Virus record (IMG/VR): IMGVR_UViG_3300005663_000016
Location: 1-43,418 of that record
Reading direction: 5' to 3' (one strand)
Source of the DNA: a virus
Length of the DNA: 43,418 nucleotides
Shown: piece after piece, positions 4,341-39,235 of the stretch
How positions within the stretch are numbered: position 1 is the first letter of the stretch
Layout: each line of letters begins with the position of its first letter
Notes under the pieces: model-generated
Told to the model about the DNA's origin: nothing
The model's database searches: none
What the model saw: the letters and a program-made list of their open reading frames with translations, nothing else
Translations under genes and position numbers: made by a program

Positions 4341-4528
4341 CACTGACTGAACTGCTAAGGAGAAACCACTATAGCGAGGATGATATAGTAGATATTAAGT
4401 ATGAACTTAGAAAGTGGCTCAAGGAGATGGGTCTACCTGACTATGACACTATTGGCAAAGGTGGGGCTATATTCTCTGCTACCGACTCACTACGGGAACT
4501 GCTAGTAACTCTAGTGGACGAGCCATAA
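4337..4528 (+). CDS. Hypothetical small protein, 63 residues
   Basis: ATG 4337 overlaps the methyltransferase stop (ATGA) and has a perfect AGGAGG at 4327-4332. An in-frame upstream ATG (4301) lacks this support. The protein is acidic and helical (MTLTELLRRNHYSEDDIVDIKYELRKWL). The polymerase gene follows immediately. Function unknown. Confidence 0.7.
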   Translation: MTLTELLRRNHYSEDDIVDIKYELRKWLKEMGLPDYDTIGKGGAIFSATDSLRELLVTLVDEP

Positions 4529-6232
4529 ATGTACTTCAACCACGACCCTAGCACCAACTCCTACTACTATGGTGAAACAGCACCTTACAAGGGTATGGGT
4601 AAAGACTTGCTGTTTAACCAGTCCCACCAGGTAATCGGTGTTGATGTAGAAACTATCAGCCTCAAGGAGCGTACTGCTGTAGGTGTAGGTATCAGCCTCA
4701 AACCTAACCTCAGCTTCTACTTCCAGCTATTCCCTGAGGTATCACCATCAATACCATGGCACCTACTGACAGACCCCAAAGTGACCAAGGTAATGCACAA
4801 TGGACTCTTTGACCTGCCAGCATTGCGGGAGTATGATGTGGATACCACAGCCATAGTGGATACCATGATAATGGCCAGGTTATTATGCTACCAATTTACA
4901 GGGTTGTTGGACATGTCACCTGTACACAGGATGGAAGTCCATGACATGAAGGAAGTGCTGGAGGAACATGGTGCTAAAACCACACTGGAGTTGCCTCAGG
5001 AGGTGACAGCCCGCAAATGTATGCAGGATAGCTCGGCCACCTTACAACTCTACCACGAATTGTGGGAGGATACCAACAAGGAGTACCTGGCTACTGAAAT
5101 GCAGGTCATACCTATCTGTATTGATATGTCCTACCGTGGTTTGCTGATTGACCAGAACATGAGGCAGATAGTGGAGGACATATTACAGGAACAGTCGGAC
5201 TATTACCTTGGTCTGTGTGAGGAGGAAGGATTCCTGCCGAGTTCAGCACAACAGGTGGCATGGACACTAGGTGACCGTGGAGCCTATAGTGTGTTCAGGC
5301 GGTTGCCTTATACTAATTGGAAAAAGACACAGCTATCCACCTCCAAGGAAACACTAAAGAAGATGGACGACCCACTGGCTGGCATAGTGCTACAGTATAG
5401 GGAATATGCCAAGCTCAATTCTACCTACATCAAACCATGGGCACATGACGAGAGGGCTTACACTAGGTTCCACCTAGATGCTATCACAGGTAGGCCGTCC
5501 AGCACTGACAGGAACATGCAGAACATACCTGGCAAATTCAGGAAGGATGGCAGCAAATATCCGGTGAACTGCCGTGGTGTATTGCTACCAGACAGTGGTA
5601 CTTGGACTGATGTGGATTGGGAGCAGTTAGAACCTAGAGTATTGGCTTACCTGTCTGAGGATAAGGAAATGCAACACATCTTCTCCTTGCCTAAATACAA
5701 CCCAGATGGTAGCAAGAATGAGGATGCAGACATACACCTACAGGTGGCTATGTTTATGGGTGTTGTCCGAAGGCTAGGCAAACTAACAAACCTAGCTATG
5801 ACTTATGGTGCCACTGATGAAACATTGGCAGAACAACTAGGTATTAAGGACATTGGCAGGATTAGACAGCTAAAGGATATGTGGGGGAGAAAATTCCCAC
5901 AGGCTATGGACTGGATAGACTCACGGCAGGAGGATGCTCTGAGGACTGGTATGGCTAGGACTGTGTTTGGCAGGAATATCAGGTTGCCTACTGAGGAGGA
6001 GGAAAGTGCCGATAGTATTAAGAGGAAGGCTATTGATTATCCGTGTCAGGGTAGTGCTGCCGAGATACTGAAGCGTGGTCTAATCAGGATGCAGAAGCTC
6101 AATCTCAGCCTGCAGGTACATGACGAGCTGTTGGTGGATGGGTACGTACCCGATTATACGTTCAAGCCATTGGAGGATATAGCACCATTCAGGACGCCAG
6201 TGGAAGTAAAGTATTTGGAGAGGTGGGAATAA
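4529..6232 (+). CDS. polA: DNA polymerase I family (family A) with 3'-5' exonuclease domain
   Basis: A compact 567-residue family A polymerase, about the size of a Klenow fragment, with no 5' nuclease domain. Exonuclease motifs: D39 and E41 in GVDVET, N91 and D95 in HNGLFD, D167 in CMQDSSATLQLY. Polymerase motifs: QNIP (331-334), motif A DVDWEQLEPRVLAYLS with D363 and E368, motif B RRLGKLTNLAMTYG (R414, K418, Y426), and motif C VHDELL with D532. All catalytic carboxylates are present. The exo III Tyr normally four residues before the Asp is Lys here. It starts directly after the previous stop. It is the replicative polymerase of the phage by inference. Confidence 0.95.
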   Translation: MYFNHDPSTNSYYYGETAPYKGMGKDLLFNQSHQVIGVDVETISLKERTAVGVGISLKPNLSFYFQLFPEVSPSIPWHLLTDPKVTKVMHNGLFDLPALREYDVDTTAIVDTMIMARLLCYQFTGLLDMSPVHRMEVHDMKEVLEEHGAKTTLELPQEVTARKCMQDSSATLQLYHELWEDTNKEYLATEMQVIPICIDMSYRGLLIDQNMRQIVEDILQEQSDYYLGLCEEEGFLPSSAQQVAWTLGDRGAYSVFRRLPYTNWKKTQLSTSKETLKKMDDPLAGIVLQYREYAKLNSTYIKPWAHDERAYTRFHLDAITGRPSSTDRNMQNIPGKFRKDGSKYPVNCRGVLLPDSGTWTDVDWEQLEPRVLAYLSEDKEMQHIFSLPKYNPDGSKNEDADIHLQVAMFMGVVRRLGKLTNLAMTYGATDETLAEQLGIKDIGRIRQLKDMWGRKFPQAMDWIDSRQEDALRTGMARTVFGRNIRLPTEEEESADSIKRKAIDYPCQGSAAEILKRGLIRMQKLNLSLQVHDELLVDGYVPDYTFKPLEDIAPFRTPVEVKYLERWE

Positions 6233-6390
6233 TGACACTAAACGAGCTAATTAGGGATTTGCAACTAGAACAGGATAGGCATGGAGATAATGAGGTAGGC
6301 TACGAGGTTGGTAGTACCTATATGGAGATTCTCATAGGTGACGACCCTGCCACAGGAAGCTCTGTCAACATACCTGACCCTGGCTGGTAG
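6232..6390 (+). CDS. Hypothetical small protein, 52 residues, last gene of the plus operon
   Basis: It begins in the polymerase stop codon (TAATG) and is probably translated by coupling. The protein is acidic (MTLNELIRDLQLEQDRHGDN) and similar in its first residues to the 63-residue protein just before the polymerase (MTLTELL). It ends just before a hairpin that separates the converging operons. Confidence 0.6.
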   Translation: MTLNELIRDLQLEQDRHGDNEVGYEVGSTYMEILIGDDPATGSSVNIPDPGW

Positions 6391-6394
6391 TAAA

Positions 6395-6428
6395 GGACTC
6401 CCTAGTTGTTGCCACTACCAAGGAGTCC
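6395..6428. terminator. Hairpin between converging operons, probable bidirectional terminator
   Basis: GGACTCC at 6395-6401 pairs with GGAGTCC at 6422-6428, and inside it TAGT pairs with ACTA around a 7-base loop. It lies 5 bases after the last plus-strand gene and about 110 bases beyond the end of the minus-strand operon. No long T-run follows on either strand (only CCTTTA on the minus strand), so termination may be weak or factor-assisted. The remaining bases to 6537 hold no gene. Confidence 0.55.
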
Positions 6429-6537
6429 CTGCACTATCCAATATAGTCAGGCAGTACATAGGTGATAAGCAACCACAATACTACCCCAACTATAAGGACT
6501 AATACAACTGCCTCAAATAGAACCTTTAACAAGTACT

Positions 6538-32943: not shown

Positions 32944-33117
32944 ATTATGTCAACTAACCCTGAAAACTTTATGTCAAGTAGCACCCGCACTAGCACGGAT
33001 GTTCTACTCCGTGCCATCAGAACATATGTTCTAGTAGTCCGTTATGTCAACCCGCCATCATCAGGTACATTATGTAAAGTCCACACAAACGCAAAAAATA
33101 GCAGGATTATGTCAACT
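32944..33117 (+). promoter_or_regulatory. Array of five operator-like sites in the main control region
   Basis: The 375 bp without a gene (32846-33220) hold five same-strand copies of the motif TTATGT(C/A)AA: 32944-32955 and 33106-33117 (both exact ATTATGTCAACT), 32968-32979 (TTTATGTCAAGT), 33041-33052 (GTTATGTCAACC) and 33069-33080 (ATTATGTAAAGT). The last ends 7 bp before the -35 of the promoter at 33125. There is also a GCACGGA/TCCGTGC hairpin at 32993-33014. The array looks like a multi-site repressor or activator region. Confidence 0.75.
33019..33032. promoter_or_regulatory. LexA-type (SOS box) palindrome
   Basis: AGAACATATGTTCT is a perfect 14 bp palindrome with the GAAC-N4-GTTC core bound by LexA of Gram-positive bacteria (box CGAAC-N4-GTTCG). 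It lies inside the operator array about 95 bp upstream of the -35 at 33125. If the host has a LexA of this specificity, the region could respond to DNA damage. A chance palindrome remains possible. Confidence 0.45.
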
Positions 33118-33124
33118 AAAGGGC

Positions 33125-33153
33125 TTGACAAATAGCTGAACCTGTGCTATACT
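33125..33153 (+). promoter_or_regulatory. Sigma-70 promoter of the inverted-repeat mini-gene region
   Basis: Perfect TTGACA (33125-33130), 17 bp spacer, TATACT (33148-33153), with CTGTGC before the -10. The start is expected near 33160, so the transcript would carry both arms of the 33184/33371 inverted repeat and the genes at 33221, 33574 and 33844, up to the terminator at 34.5 kb. Confidence 0.85.
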
Positions 33154-33183
33154 AAAGTATAATCAAAGTAGATAGCACCTTAA

Positions 33184-33395
33184 CAATTAAGTACCTCTAG
33201 CGCCACAAAGTGAGGGACTTATGCAACGAGTAACTTGTAGACATTGTGGCAAATCAACAGCCCTGGCACATAGACGGACTCACTTACTCAAGGCACACGA
33301 CATCAACACTTTCGTACCGTCAACACAGGCAGAACTAGACAAGCTATTAGCAAGGCATTATAAATAAATGTTGTGGCGCTAGAAGTACTTAATTG
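33184..33395. repeat. 25 bp inverted repeat pair enclosing a mini-gene
   Basis: The arm at 33184-33208 and the arm at 33371-33395 are reverse complements at 24 of 25 positions (core TCTAGCGCCACAA). They lie on both sides of the 48-residue zinc-finger gene at 33221-33367, only 12 bases before its ATG and 3 bases after its stop. In the RNA they can fold into one long stem with the entire gene as its loop. In DNA they could bound an invertible or mobile cassette. Confidence 0.85.
33221..33367 (+). CDS. C2H2-like zinc-finger mini-protein, 48 residues, inside the inverted repeat
   Basis: GAGGG at 33212-33216 precedes ATG 33221. VTCRHCGKSTALAHRRTHLL then KAH has the spacing of a C2H2 finger (C6, C9, then H21 and H26), with a basic recognition-like helix, and a short acidic/helical tail (AELDKLLARHYK). 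A DNA- or RNA-binding regulator is likely. It is the first gene after the operator-controlled promoter at 33125 and is enclosed by the 25 bp inverted repeat. Confidence 0.7.
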   Translation: MQRVTCRHCGKSTALAHRRTHLLKAHDINTFVPSTQAELDKLLARHYK

Positions 33396-33522
33396 CAAGG
33401 TCGCACATGAACACAAACAACCAGCTATAAGCTGGACACAAACAGAGTGAGGCATCTGCCGAGGAGCACGGAGAGTGTATGGCAGGGAATAAGAACCGTA
33501 CTCGAACAACAATAGAATAAAG
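33396..33522 (+). other. Noncoding spacer between the two inverted-repeat modules, possible structured RNA
   Basis: No gene is visible. A short perfect hairpin, CCAGCT-ATA-AGCTGG, lies at 33421-33435, and a similar but imperfect sequence (CCTGCTATAAAGTGG) follows the second module at 33782-33796. I checked for tRNA and found none. The spacer would be part of the 33125 transcript. Confidence 0.4.
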
Positions 33523-33778
33523 GTCTATCACTCCTGGGAGTGCTTAAACTCCAAATAAAAACAGGAGTGTGTAATGCCAAACTGTGAGGGTATCAACCCA
33601 GGTTGCAAAGAATGTATGGAGCTAAATACCAAAGTAAGACAGACCGTCAAGGCTGGTGGGGAACCTTATAAGACAGCATTTAAGGCACTAGCTAATCACA
33701 TCGGATTGAAACTACACAGGATATCCGACAATTACCTAAACTAACCGTGGGGCTCAAGTGCCCCCAGGAGTGATAGAC
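33523..33778. repeat. 16 bp perfect inverted repeat pair enclosing a second mini-gene
   Basis: GTCTATCACTCCTGGG at 33523-33538 is the exact reverse complement of 33763-33778. They enclose the 56-residue gene at 33574-33744. Each arm overlaps a smaller hairpin: CACTCC-TG-GGAGTG at 33529-33542, and GGGGC-TCAAGT-GCCCC at 33749-33764. So the RNA can choose between local hairpins and one long-range stem, as in a switch. Confidence 0.8.
33574..33744 (+). CDS. Cys-rich mini-protein, 56 residues, inside the second inverted repeat
   Basis: CAGGAGTGTGT precedes ATG 33574. The N-terminus has CEGINPGCKECME (three Cys in 11 residues), possibly with a His further on to bind metal. A basic helical part follows (NTKVRQTVKAGGEPYKTAFK) and then HIGLKLHRISDNYLN. 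No family recognised. It shares its leader sequence (GGAGTGTGT) with the next gene at 33844. Confidence 0.65.
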   Translation: MPNCEGINPGCKECMELNTKVRQTVKAGGEPYKTAFKALANHIGLKLHRISDNYLN

Positions 33779-33843
33779 TAACCTGCTATAAAGTGGCAAC
33801 GTTATGGCATACGACCAAATCAATTAAAAAGGAGTGTGTTATA

Positions 33844-34449
33844 ATGGTAGAAAAAACACTGGACACATTAAAGCAGGATATCCAGAAGGCAATCGCTGGC
33901 GGGGATGATGCCGCTTTCAACACCCTGATGAAGGAATACAACTCGTGCAAGGGTGAAATCGCCAAGGCAGAGGCGGAAGGTGCCCGCAAGGAAGCTGAGG
34001 CACTGGCAGGAAAGCGGGAAGCACTTGCCAATTCCATCAAGACCGCTGTCAAGGCACTGAACCTGGATGCCGCCATCGCTGGAGTAAAGGCCAAAGGTTT
34101 CACCTACAGCACCGACCATAGGACGGATGACAAAGGCAGGATTGATGCTAATGGTGCTGTGAAGGTTACTGGTGGAGTCGGACTGTCAGTACCCACCATC
34201 AAAGCCCGTAAGGCAGGTGGTAATGGCGGAGGTGGTGGCAAGTCGAAGGATGAGTACGGGATGAGCCTGTCCGAGATTTGGGACAAGTTCAAGACCTCCG
34301 AGGATGAGGCAAAAATGGTGGAGGCAGAGAAGAAGGATGCTGAAGCCTCGGAAAAGCTGGGCAAGTCCACTAACTCCAATGCCTGGCGGGTTAAGAACGA
34401 GGTTAAAAAACAGGCTATTGCTGATGGAACCTTACCCCCTGCAAAGTAA
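33844..34449 (+). CDS. Abundant-type coiled-coil protein, 201 residues, function unknown
   Basis: AAAAAGGAGTGTGT precedes ATG 33844 (preferred over in-frame GTG 33793). Residues 1-75 are coiled coil (DTLKQDIQKAIAGGDDAAFN, then AKAEAEGARKEAEALAGKRE), a Gly-rich hinge (AGGNGGGGGK) follows near 125, and the C-terminal 60 residues are Lys/Glu-rich with a short SNAWRVKNEVKKQAIADGTL end. Codons are more GC-rich and uniform than in neighbouring genes, and a strong terminator follows, all suggesting high expression. An RNA- or DNA-organising role is possible but unproven. Confidence 0.8.
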   Translation: MVEKTLDTLKQDIQKAIAGGDDAAFNTLMKEYNSCKGEIAKAEAEGARKEAEALAGKREALANSIKTAVKALNLDAAIAGVKAKGFTYSTDHRTDDKGRIDANGAVKVTGGVGLSVPTIKARKAGGNGGGGGKSKDEYGMSLSEIWDKFKTSEDEAKMVEAEKKDAEASEKLGKSTNSNAWRVKNEVKKQAIADGTLPPAK

Positions 34450-34482
34450 AACCACTGGATAATAGCTAAAACCACAAAGATG

Positions 34483-34520
34483 GAGGATAGGAATAGTTGC
34501 CAACCTATCCTCTATTTTTA
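34483..34520 (+). terminator. Intrinsic terminator
   Basis: GAGGATAGG (34483-34491) pairs perfectly with CCTATCCTC (34504-34512) around a 12-base loop, followed by TATTTTTA. It ends the 33125 transcription unit 33 bases after the last stop codon. Confidence 0.9.
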
Positions 34521-34604: not shown

Positions 34605-34664
34605 ACTTTACATAACATTGTAGGTTCCAGTCTCACATTATGTCAAGTAACCGTTATGTAAAGT
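34605..34664. promoter_or_regulatory. Three operator-like sites upstream of the 34.7 kb promoter
   Basis: ATTATGTCAAGT at 34637-34648 and GTTATGTAAAGT at 34653-34664 are direct repeats 16 bp apart, and ACTTTACATAAC at 34605-34616 is the same motif on the other strand. The nearest ends 9 bp before the -35. Confidence 0.7.
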
Positions 34665-34673
34665 AGCCAGCTA

Positions 34674-39181: not shown

Positions 39182-39206
39182 ATTATGTCAACTGATTATG
39201 TCAACT
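39182..39206 (+). promoter_or_regulatory. Tandem operator pair at the RHH gene promoter
   Basis: Two exact ATTATGTCAACT copies in direct repeat, 13 bp apart (39182-39193, 39195-39206). The second overlaps the -35, and TGTCAA-C-TTGACA makes a perfect dyad. RHH proteins typically bind direct repeats with this kind of spacing. This pair directly upstream of the RHH gene suggests autoregulation. Confidence 0.8.
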
Positions 39207-39235
39207 TGACAAGCTACATACCTTTGTGTTATGAT
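39206..39235 (+). promoter_or_regulatory. Sigma-70 promoter of the RHH regulator and replication genes
   Basis: Perfect TTGACA (39206-39211), 18 bp spacer, TATGAT (39230-39235), with TTGTGT before the -10. Expected start near 39242; leader about 25 bases with AAGGAGG. Confidence 0.85.

Follow-up and report, generated by a model that had tools for sequence, protein, structure and literature searches.

In the family of uncultured phages described here, the leader between a promoter and a conserved gene of ~200 aa is a slot that is either empty or occupied by one or two very small genes; these are unrelated, and each lies between a pair of complementary arms. Long-range pairing of these arms is predicted at the level of RNA, and is very probable. 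The role that we favor for this pairing, to which we give a rough probability of 45% on the basis of folding models, is a switch in which completion of the copy would open the gene for translation.

The window (the whole stretch of DNA that was analyzed, 43,418 bases) is the complete IMG/VR virus record IMGVR_UViG_3300005663_000016. Its operon runs from a promoter through element 1, element 2 and the ~200-aa gene to a hairpin with a T-run, and contains the following features:

32944-33118, + strand: four operator-like repeats of the ATTATGTMAASTW type (starts 32944, 32968, 33069 and 33106), 5' of the promoter
33020-33031, + strand: GAACATATGTTC site, one copy, ahead of the promoter
33125-33153, + strand: promoter TTGACA-17-TATACT with an extended -10 TG, from a promoter scan; most relatives have one upstream of the ~200-aa gene
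33184-33208, + strand: left (5') arm of element 1, 25 nt
33221-33367, + strand: cargo ORF of element 1, a 48-aa zinc-finger-like orphan (CxxC...H...H)
33371-33395, + strand: right (3') arm of element 1, beginning 3 nt past the stop codon
33479-33520, + strand: possible 13-codon ORF MAGNKNRTRTTIE with its own GGAGAG, from reading the sequence; stops 2 nt short of element 2
33523-33536, + strand: 5' strand of the element 2 outer stem (P1), GTYTATCACTCCTR, conserved in four phages
33537-33552, + strand: local hairpin P2 of element 2, GGAGT-GCTTAA-ACTCC
33562-33569, + strand: ribosome-binding site of element 2, CAGGAGTG; its complement CACTCCTG lies in the 5' arm, and the first part of the 3' arm has the same sequence as the site
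33574-33744, + strand: cargo ORF of element 2, a 56-aa Cys-containing orphan, coding by codon score
33749-33764, + strand: local hairpin P3 of element 2, GGGGC-TCAAGT-GCCCC, directly past the stop codon
33765-33778, + strand: 3' strand of the element 2 outer stem (P1), CAGGAGTGATAGAC
33785-33808, + strand: conserved leader hairpin with the loop AGTGGYAACR, found in the leaders of all relatives examined
33844-34449, + strand: conserved ~200-aa gene, 3' of the slot; product predicted to be mostly helical
34476-34519, + strand: hairpin followed by a T-run, probable operon terminator, from the repeat list and from reading the sequence

An earlier note on this DNA had described two small genes behind one operator-controlled promoter, the first within arms of 25 bp and the second within perfect arms of 16 bp. 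The coordinates of both arm pairs were confirmed (24/25 nt are complementary in element 1); a TTGACA-17-TATACT promoter preceded by four operator-like repeats lies ahead of both genes. The arms of element 2 (33523-33538 and 33763-33778) match perfectly over 16 nt, and at 81% over 31 nt when extended to 33553 and 33748; they can also be read as a 14-bp outer stem followed immediately by a 5-bp hairpin on either side. The local hairpins had been suggested to compete with the long stem, but they need not do so, because an outer stem with flanking hairpins can be drawn as well. The window as a whole holds 10 copies of ATTATGTMAASTW (0.55 expected), and copies precede several promoters (32944-33118, 34637-34665, 39182-39207, 28920 and 42894). 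The GAACATATGTTC site at 33020 is similar to Gram-positive LexA boxes. Besides the 13-codon ORF of the window, short leader ORFs follow the promoter in three relatives (L021, L025 and L029). AlphaFold modeled the ~200-aa protein with low confidence (pLDDT 67, pTM 0.33), and an Rfam scan of the window returned no family at or above the gathering score.

Relatives of the window were reached by three routes: the terminase yielded close and distant kin, scanning with the second arm pair yielded L009, and the ~200-aa protein yielded L017. The ~200-aa gene was detected in 9 of 13 further records searched (L017's own counted), and 11 leaders with a promoter ahead of this gene were examined, L024 being a repeat of L023. 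Five leaders contain no element (L005, L020, L021, L025 and L029), and in these the start codon lies 94-189 nt from the promoter. The remaining six (L004, L009, L017, L023, L028 and the window) contain enclosed small genes, and the promoter lies 370-909 nt from the ~200-aa gene (~430 nt in L023, where the promoter pattern was unmatched and the promoter is readable in the sequence). The extra length of the long leaders consists of one or two enclosed small genes, with two elements in series in three of the six (the window, L009 and L017); slots with 0, 1 and 2 elements coexist among the relatives. Matches to the arm pattern in L007 and L008 are located within coding DNA and were rejected as chance. 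Among phage isolates, no similarity was found to the window DNA, no match to the ~200-aa protein, and only remote matches to the terminase. Viral contigs searched directly with the two cargo proteins and the ~200-aa protein alone returned nothing, and bacterial and archaeal genomes returned no prophage or host, with a single weak terminase match in a Leptolyngbya MAG.

Other features recur around the slot. The hairpin with the AGTGGYAACR loop, its stem varying, is present in the leaders of the window, L005, L004, L009, L017, L020, L021, L023, L025, L026, L028 and L029; it lies 3' of the enclosed genes in the window, L017 and L028, and 5' of them in L004, L009 and L023, and is possibly a protein-binding site. 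A second leader hairpin, NNNACTATTGGAGTNNN, occurs on the minus strand of L021 (~14700), L025 (~16050), L028 (~16725) and L029 (~4120), directly before the AGTGGYAACR hairpin or an enclosed gene, with stems that vary among phages and keep their complementarity. The AGTGGCAAC loop is also carried by a hairpin of 14 pairs between convergent genes on the minus strand of the window (~6390-6430), which may terminate transcription in both directions or be a further copy of the leader motif. In L004, L005 and L009, the operon following the ~200-aa gene includes a gene that resembles a GIY-YIG nuclease (VYILHFDRPYW...HYVGYTKDLE, judged by eye; for example, L009 4998-5339); the window has none at that place.

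The enclosed genes themselves are diverse. The nine elements contain ten ORFs of 43-69 aa (two in L009-2), including zinc-finger-like and charged helical orphans; the ten proteins have no mutual similarity, and neither Pfam nor PHROGs holds a family for any of them. Codon scores, trained on 124 long genes with stop codons excluded, rank frame 0 best in 10/10 cargo ORFs and exceed at least 96% of off-frame windows in 8/10, the 48-aa ORF of the window and L009-2b not being distinguished. The earlier note had proposed a search for the arms with other genes between them, and the second arm pair of the window indeed surrounds a different cargo in each of four phages; the frame is therefore kept while the gene is exchanged. 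That note had also considered that related phages might keep the genes and lose the arms. The reverse was seen, with relatives retaining complementary arms but not the genes.

The arms are as varied as their contents, with at least six unrelated sequences among the nine elements, yet each is complementary to its own partner. The types are those of window element 1; of the family shared by window element 2, L004, L009-2 and L023; and of L009-1, L017-A, L017-B and L028. With boundaries and Shine–Dalgarno sequences chosen by eye for each element, the stems that enclose the genes all measure 14-37 nt, with an arm-to-arm distance of about 150-400 nt. In the 43 kb of the window, no other inverted repeat with arms less than 1 kb apart is as long as its two elements. 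Scored without gaps (+1 per match, -2 per mismatch), they reach 22 for element 1 and 16 for element 2, whereas first-order Markov copies of the window contain 0.05 repeats scoring at least 16 per copy (maximum 16 in 60 copies). The RNA fold of each window element beats 200/200 dinucleotide shuffles (z = -4.5 for element 1 and -3.9 for element 2). Across ~400 kb of these phages (loci partly overlapping), the other inverted repeats scoring at least 15 at such spacing are an AT-rich pair in L017 and one repeat in L050. When 630 ORFs with a Shine–Dalgarno motif were compared, these elements accounted for eight of the nine strongest upstream–downstream duplexes; the ninth, at a minus-strand ORF of L017 (7840), was treated as chance. 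A third inverted repeat in L017 (30 nt, AT-rich, 4458-4803) surrounds a gene for a Cys-containing protein of 70 aa that does not lie in the leader slot; the repeat was set aside as low complexity, and the L028 homologue of the enclosed gene has no such arms. That the arrangement as a whole arises from chance or faulty assembly is extremely unlikely: the contigs are metagenomic, and low-complexity repeats such as L017 4458-4803 do exist, but the Markov null predicts only 0.05 per window, and the elements occupy one locus in six leaders on contigs from several metagenomes.

Conservation of the pairing is most evident in the arm family of element 2. Its outer stem (GTYTATCACTCCTR/YAGGAGTGATARAC) and post-stop hairpin comprise 19 pairs, none broken and three changed on both sides, and standard pairs fill 76/76 pair cells; the covariation in related phages that the earlier note had proposed to look for is present as these three compensatory changes in the second arm pair. 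The result was reached by 7/500 shuffles, and was lost when the partner was slid by 1-3 columns (the alignment left out an extra C of L009-2, between P3 and P1'). L023 retains the hairpin before the Shine–Dalgarno sequence as a structure, with a quite different sequence. Hairpins abut the stem inside both arms throughout this family, and most other elements have a hairpin after the stop codon. What the computation shows, then, is that the arms exist, that relatives keep them complementary, that cargo has been exchanged and, as described below, that the possible pairings exclude each other.

The element 2 arms are ~90% identical between the window and L004, compared with ~70-76% for the conserved genes, and the enclosed gene is unrelated. 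Judged from the sequences, this near-identity in four phages, exceeding that of the genes, is more than pairing alone would require. It could reflect a role of the arms in DNA, with phages recombining at shared arm sequence, small genes being swapped, and pairing being secondary. The four phages with one frame and four cargos are consistent with such exchange, as are slots with 0, 1 and 2 elements side by side. Exchange requires homology, however, and has no need of inversion between repeats; none of the five remaining arm pairs has a relative, yet all are complementary, and L023 keeps its local hairpins with different sequence. Recombination at the arms accounts for element 2 arms that are better conserved than the surrounding genes, but not for unrelated arms that are always inverted, and we regard it as an unlikely explanation. 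An element that inverts or transposes by way of terminal inverted repeats shares the layout of a gene between inverted repeats only superficially, and is very unlikely. The orientation of the enclosed gene is identical in 9/9 elements, each record has a single copy of the element 2 arm type, which never lies outside this slot, arms are unlike between elements, and none of the enclosed genes is a recognizable recombinase.

The roles first proposed for the arms are in part supported. An invertible cassette finds no support, the gene having one orientation in 9/9 elements. The idea of a minimal mobile unit fails in its transposon form, given unrelated arm types and a searched type found once per record in the same slot, but survives as a fixed frame with an exchanged gene. 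An RNA switch that protects or hides the gene is the best supported, by arm complementarity kept despite sequence change and by the overlap of the arms with alternative pairings of the ribosome-binding site.

This overlap appears when the leading part of each element, 5' arm through start codon, is folded alone: by calculation, the 5' arm occludes the Shine–Dalgarno sequence or the start codon in 8/9 elements. The pairings are CACUCCUG/CAGGAGUG in window element 2, CUAUcACUCCU/AGGAGUAUAG in L004, UAUCACUCCU/AGGAGUuGAUA in L009-2, CUCCUAG/CUAGGAG in L023, CCUCUAA/UUUAGAGG in L017-A and UCCUCAAGG/CUUUGAGGA in L017-B; the start codon is occluded in L009-1. In window element 1, the pairing is AAGUACCUC/GAGGGACUU with one mismatch, and sets an arm part (33189-33197, AAGTACCTC) against the ribosome-binding site (33212-33220, GAGGGACTT) as an alternative to the long stem. 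Calculated energies are -9 to -18 kcal/mol for the 5' hairpins of the eight elements versus -33 to -49 for the arm duplexes; the 3' arm targets the same 5'-arm partner, with a far stronger duplex. In equilibrium calculations on truncated RNA, which ignore ribosomes and kinetics, addition of the 3' arm raises openness from 0.00 to 0.28 in window element 2, 0.18 to 0.59 in L004, 0.00 to 0.65 at the start codon of L009-1, 0.16 to 0.64 in L009-2, 0.06 to 0.53 in L017-A and 0.13 to 0.78 in L017-B. The rise is weak in window element 1 (0.33 to 0.52; 0.36 to 0.40 with another flank), and L023 shows almost no change. In L028 the Shine–Dalgarno sequence lies inside the long stem and the site is buried, giving a sign opposite to that of the six elements with a clear rise.

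Each cargo may therefore be pictured as a paired-end RNA module, made up of 5' arm, ribosome-binding site, gene, stop codon and 3' arm. Early in transcription, the 5' arm would pair with whichever lies close by, the ribosome-binding site or the start codon, and hold it closed. Once the stop codon has been transcribed, the 3' arm, similar to the binding-site segment, would capture the 5' arm in a longer and stabler stem, and the binding site would be set free. Because the 3' arm must be made to free the site, translation of the mini-gene would depend on a complete copy. We infer that this pairing would form in the cell, would switch translation, and would follow this order of events. The specificity of the 5' arm is modest: it matches its own binding site somewhat better than 243 other binding sites (Fisher p ~0.02-0.03), since arms contain generic anti-Shine–Dalgarno motifs. 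Several ORFs outside the elements show equally large changes in openness, and a comparison of ribosome-binding-site accessibility with 555 small ORFs does not single out all of the elements; the switch is therefore not claimed for all of them. We therefore regard the long-range pairing as having good support, and the direction given here for the switch as the best but unproven reading.

The opposite direction, repression by the full-length message in the style of hok, AapA or icaR, would silence the gene until its message is cleaved at the 3' end. L028 fits such a scheme, with its Shine–Dalgarno sequence in the long stem, and toxin mRNAs of that kind also have transient Shine–Dalgarno hairpins (PMC6733600). 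The long stem is predicted to free the site in six elements, however, and a scan for the sigma-70-type consensus found no minus-strand promoter-like site for an antisense RNA within 33150-33800; we consider this scheme quite improbable. Less remote, though still rather doubtful, is a role in RNA processing, in which the arms would form a double-stranded stalk cut by RNase III, as at pre-rRNA ends. The mini-gene would then be excised as a separate mRNA capped by P2 and P3, and the message of the downstream gene freed; the 5'/3' UTR duplex of icaR is a known substrate of this kind (PMC3868564). Stems of 14-37 nt surround every gene, and excision from them would give a use to the hairpins directly inside, which adjoin the stem within both arms in the element 2 family and follow the stop codon in most others. 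However, an outer stem of 14-16 bp would be a short substrate for RNase III if it did not stack on the inner hairpins, and processing alone leaves the pairing of the 5' arm with the binding site unexplained.

If the switch opened by completion is correct, it would be a compact device linking translation to transcript completion, contrary to the usual coupling, and also a frame for gene exchange. A more tentative extension, which we would hold to be possible rather than probable, is that self-opening RNA capsules, lined up one after another in a conserved operon's leader, are a general phage format for accessory genes. The arms would form a reusable frame, any inserted gene would be translatable only as a complete unit, and unrelated genes could be swapped without disturbing their neighbors. 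The arm architecture also offers a way to find small phage genes that have escaped notice.

Among open-licence papers, no description of serial enclosed genes was found. T4-type phages reportedly carry promoter–stem-loop cassettes (Arbiol et al. 2010) that accompany the shuffling of small genes in plastic regions. Those cassettes are said to comprise a promoter and one hairpin between genes, whereas paired arms surround each gene here. Unlike the ends of a transposon or MITE, the element 2 arm type is single per record and confined to one slot, and the arms of the other elements are unrelated. The SAS and ESAS of cluster K mycobacteriophages are phage-specific repeats at translation starts, with 17-bp inverted repeats and unknown function (PMC3203893). 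ESAS arms lie together upstream of the gene, mostly 4-13 bp apart, and follow a common consensus (PMC3203893); the arms described here are about 150-400 nt apart, flank the gene on both sides, and are mostly without a common consensus.

Pairing between the ends of a bacterial message is known from single genes; here it is the usual way in which small genes without relation to each other are packaged in one slot of a phage family, with two elements in series in three phages. Pairing of 5' and 3' UTRs is documented for icaR, hbs and RNAIII, and in icaR and hbs the intramolecular pairing has an effect on translation or on cleavage by RNase III or RNase Y (PMC3868564, PMC7821165). The two message ends pair intramolecularly in icaR and hbs, as predicted for our elements, but those two are single chromosomal genes with one short motif, and have no repeated architecture with swapped cargo. 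In contrast to icaR, the 3' arm of the window elements is predicted to pair with the 5' arm and not with the Shine–Dalgarno sequence, L028 being the exception. In AapA-type toxin messages, the ends pair over long range and short-lived anti-Shine–Dalgarno hairpins close the site during transcription; the long-range pairing also closes it, and 3' trimming opens it (PMC6733600). The likeness to type I toxin mRNAs such as AapA (Helicobacter) and hok lies in a small gene whose message ends pair, as predicted in 9/9 elements. The elements differ from these mRNAs in the predicted effect of the long-range pairing, which would open the site in six elements, have no clear effect in window element 1 and L023, and close it only in L028, and in the placement of several such genes serially within one leader.
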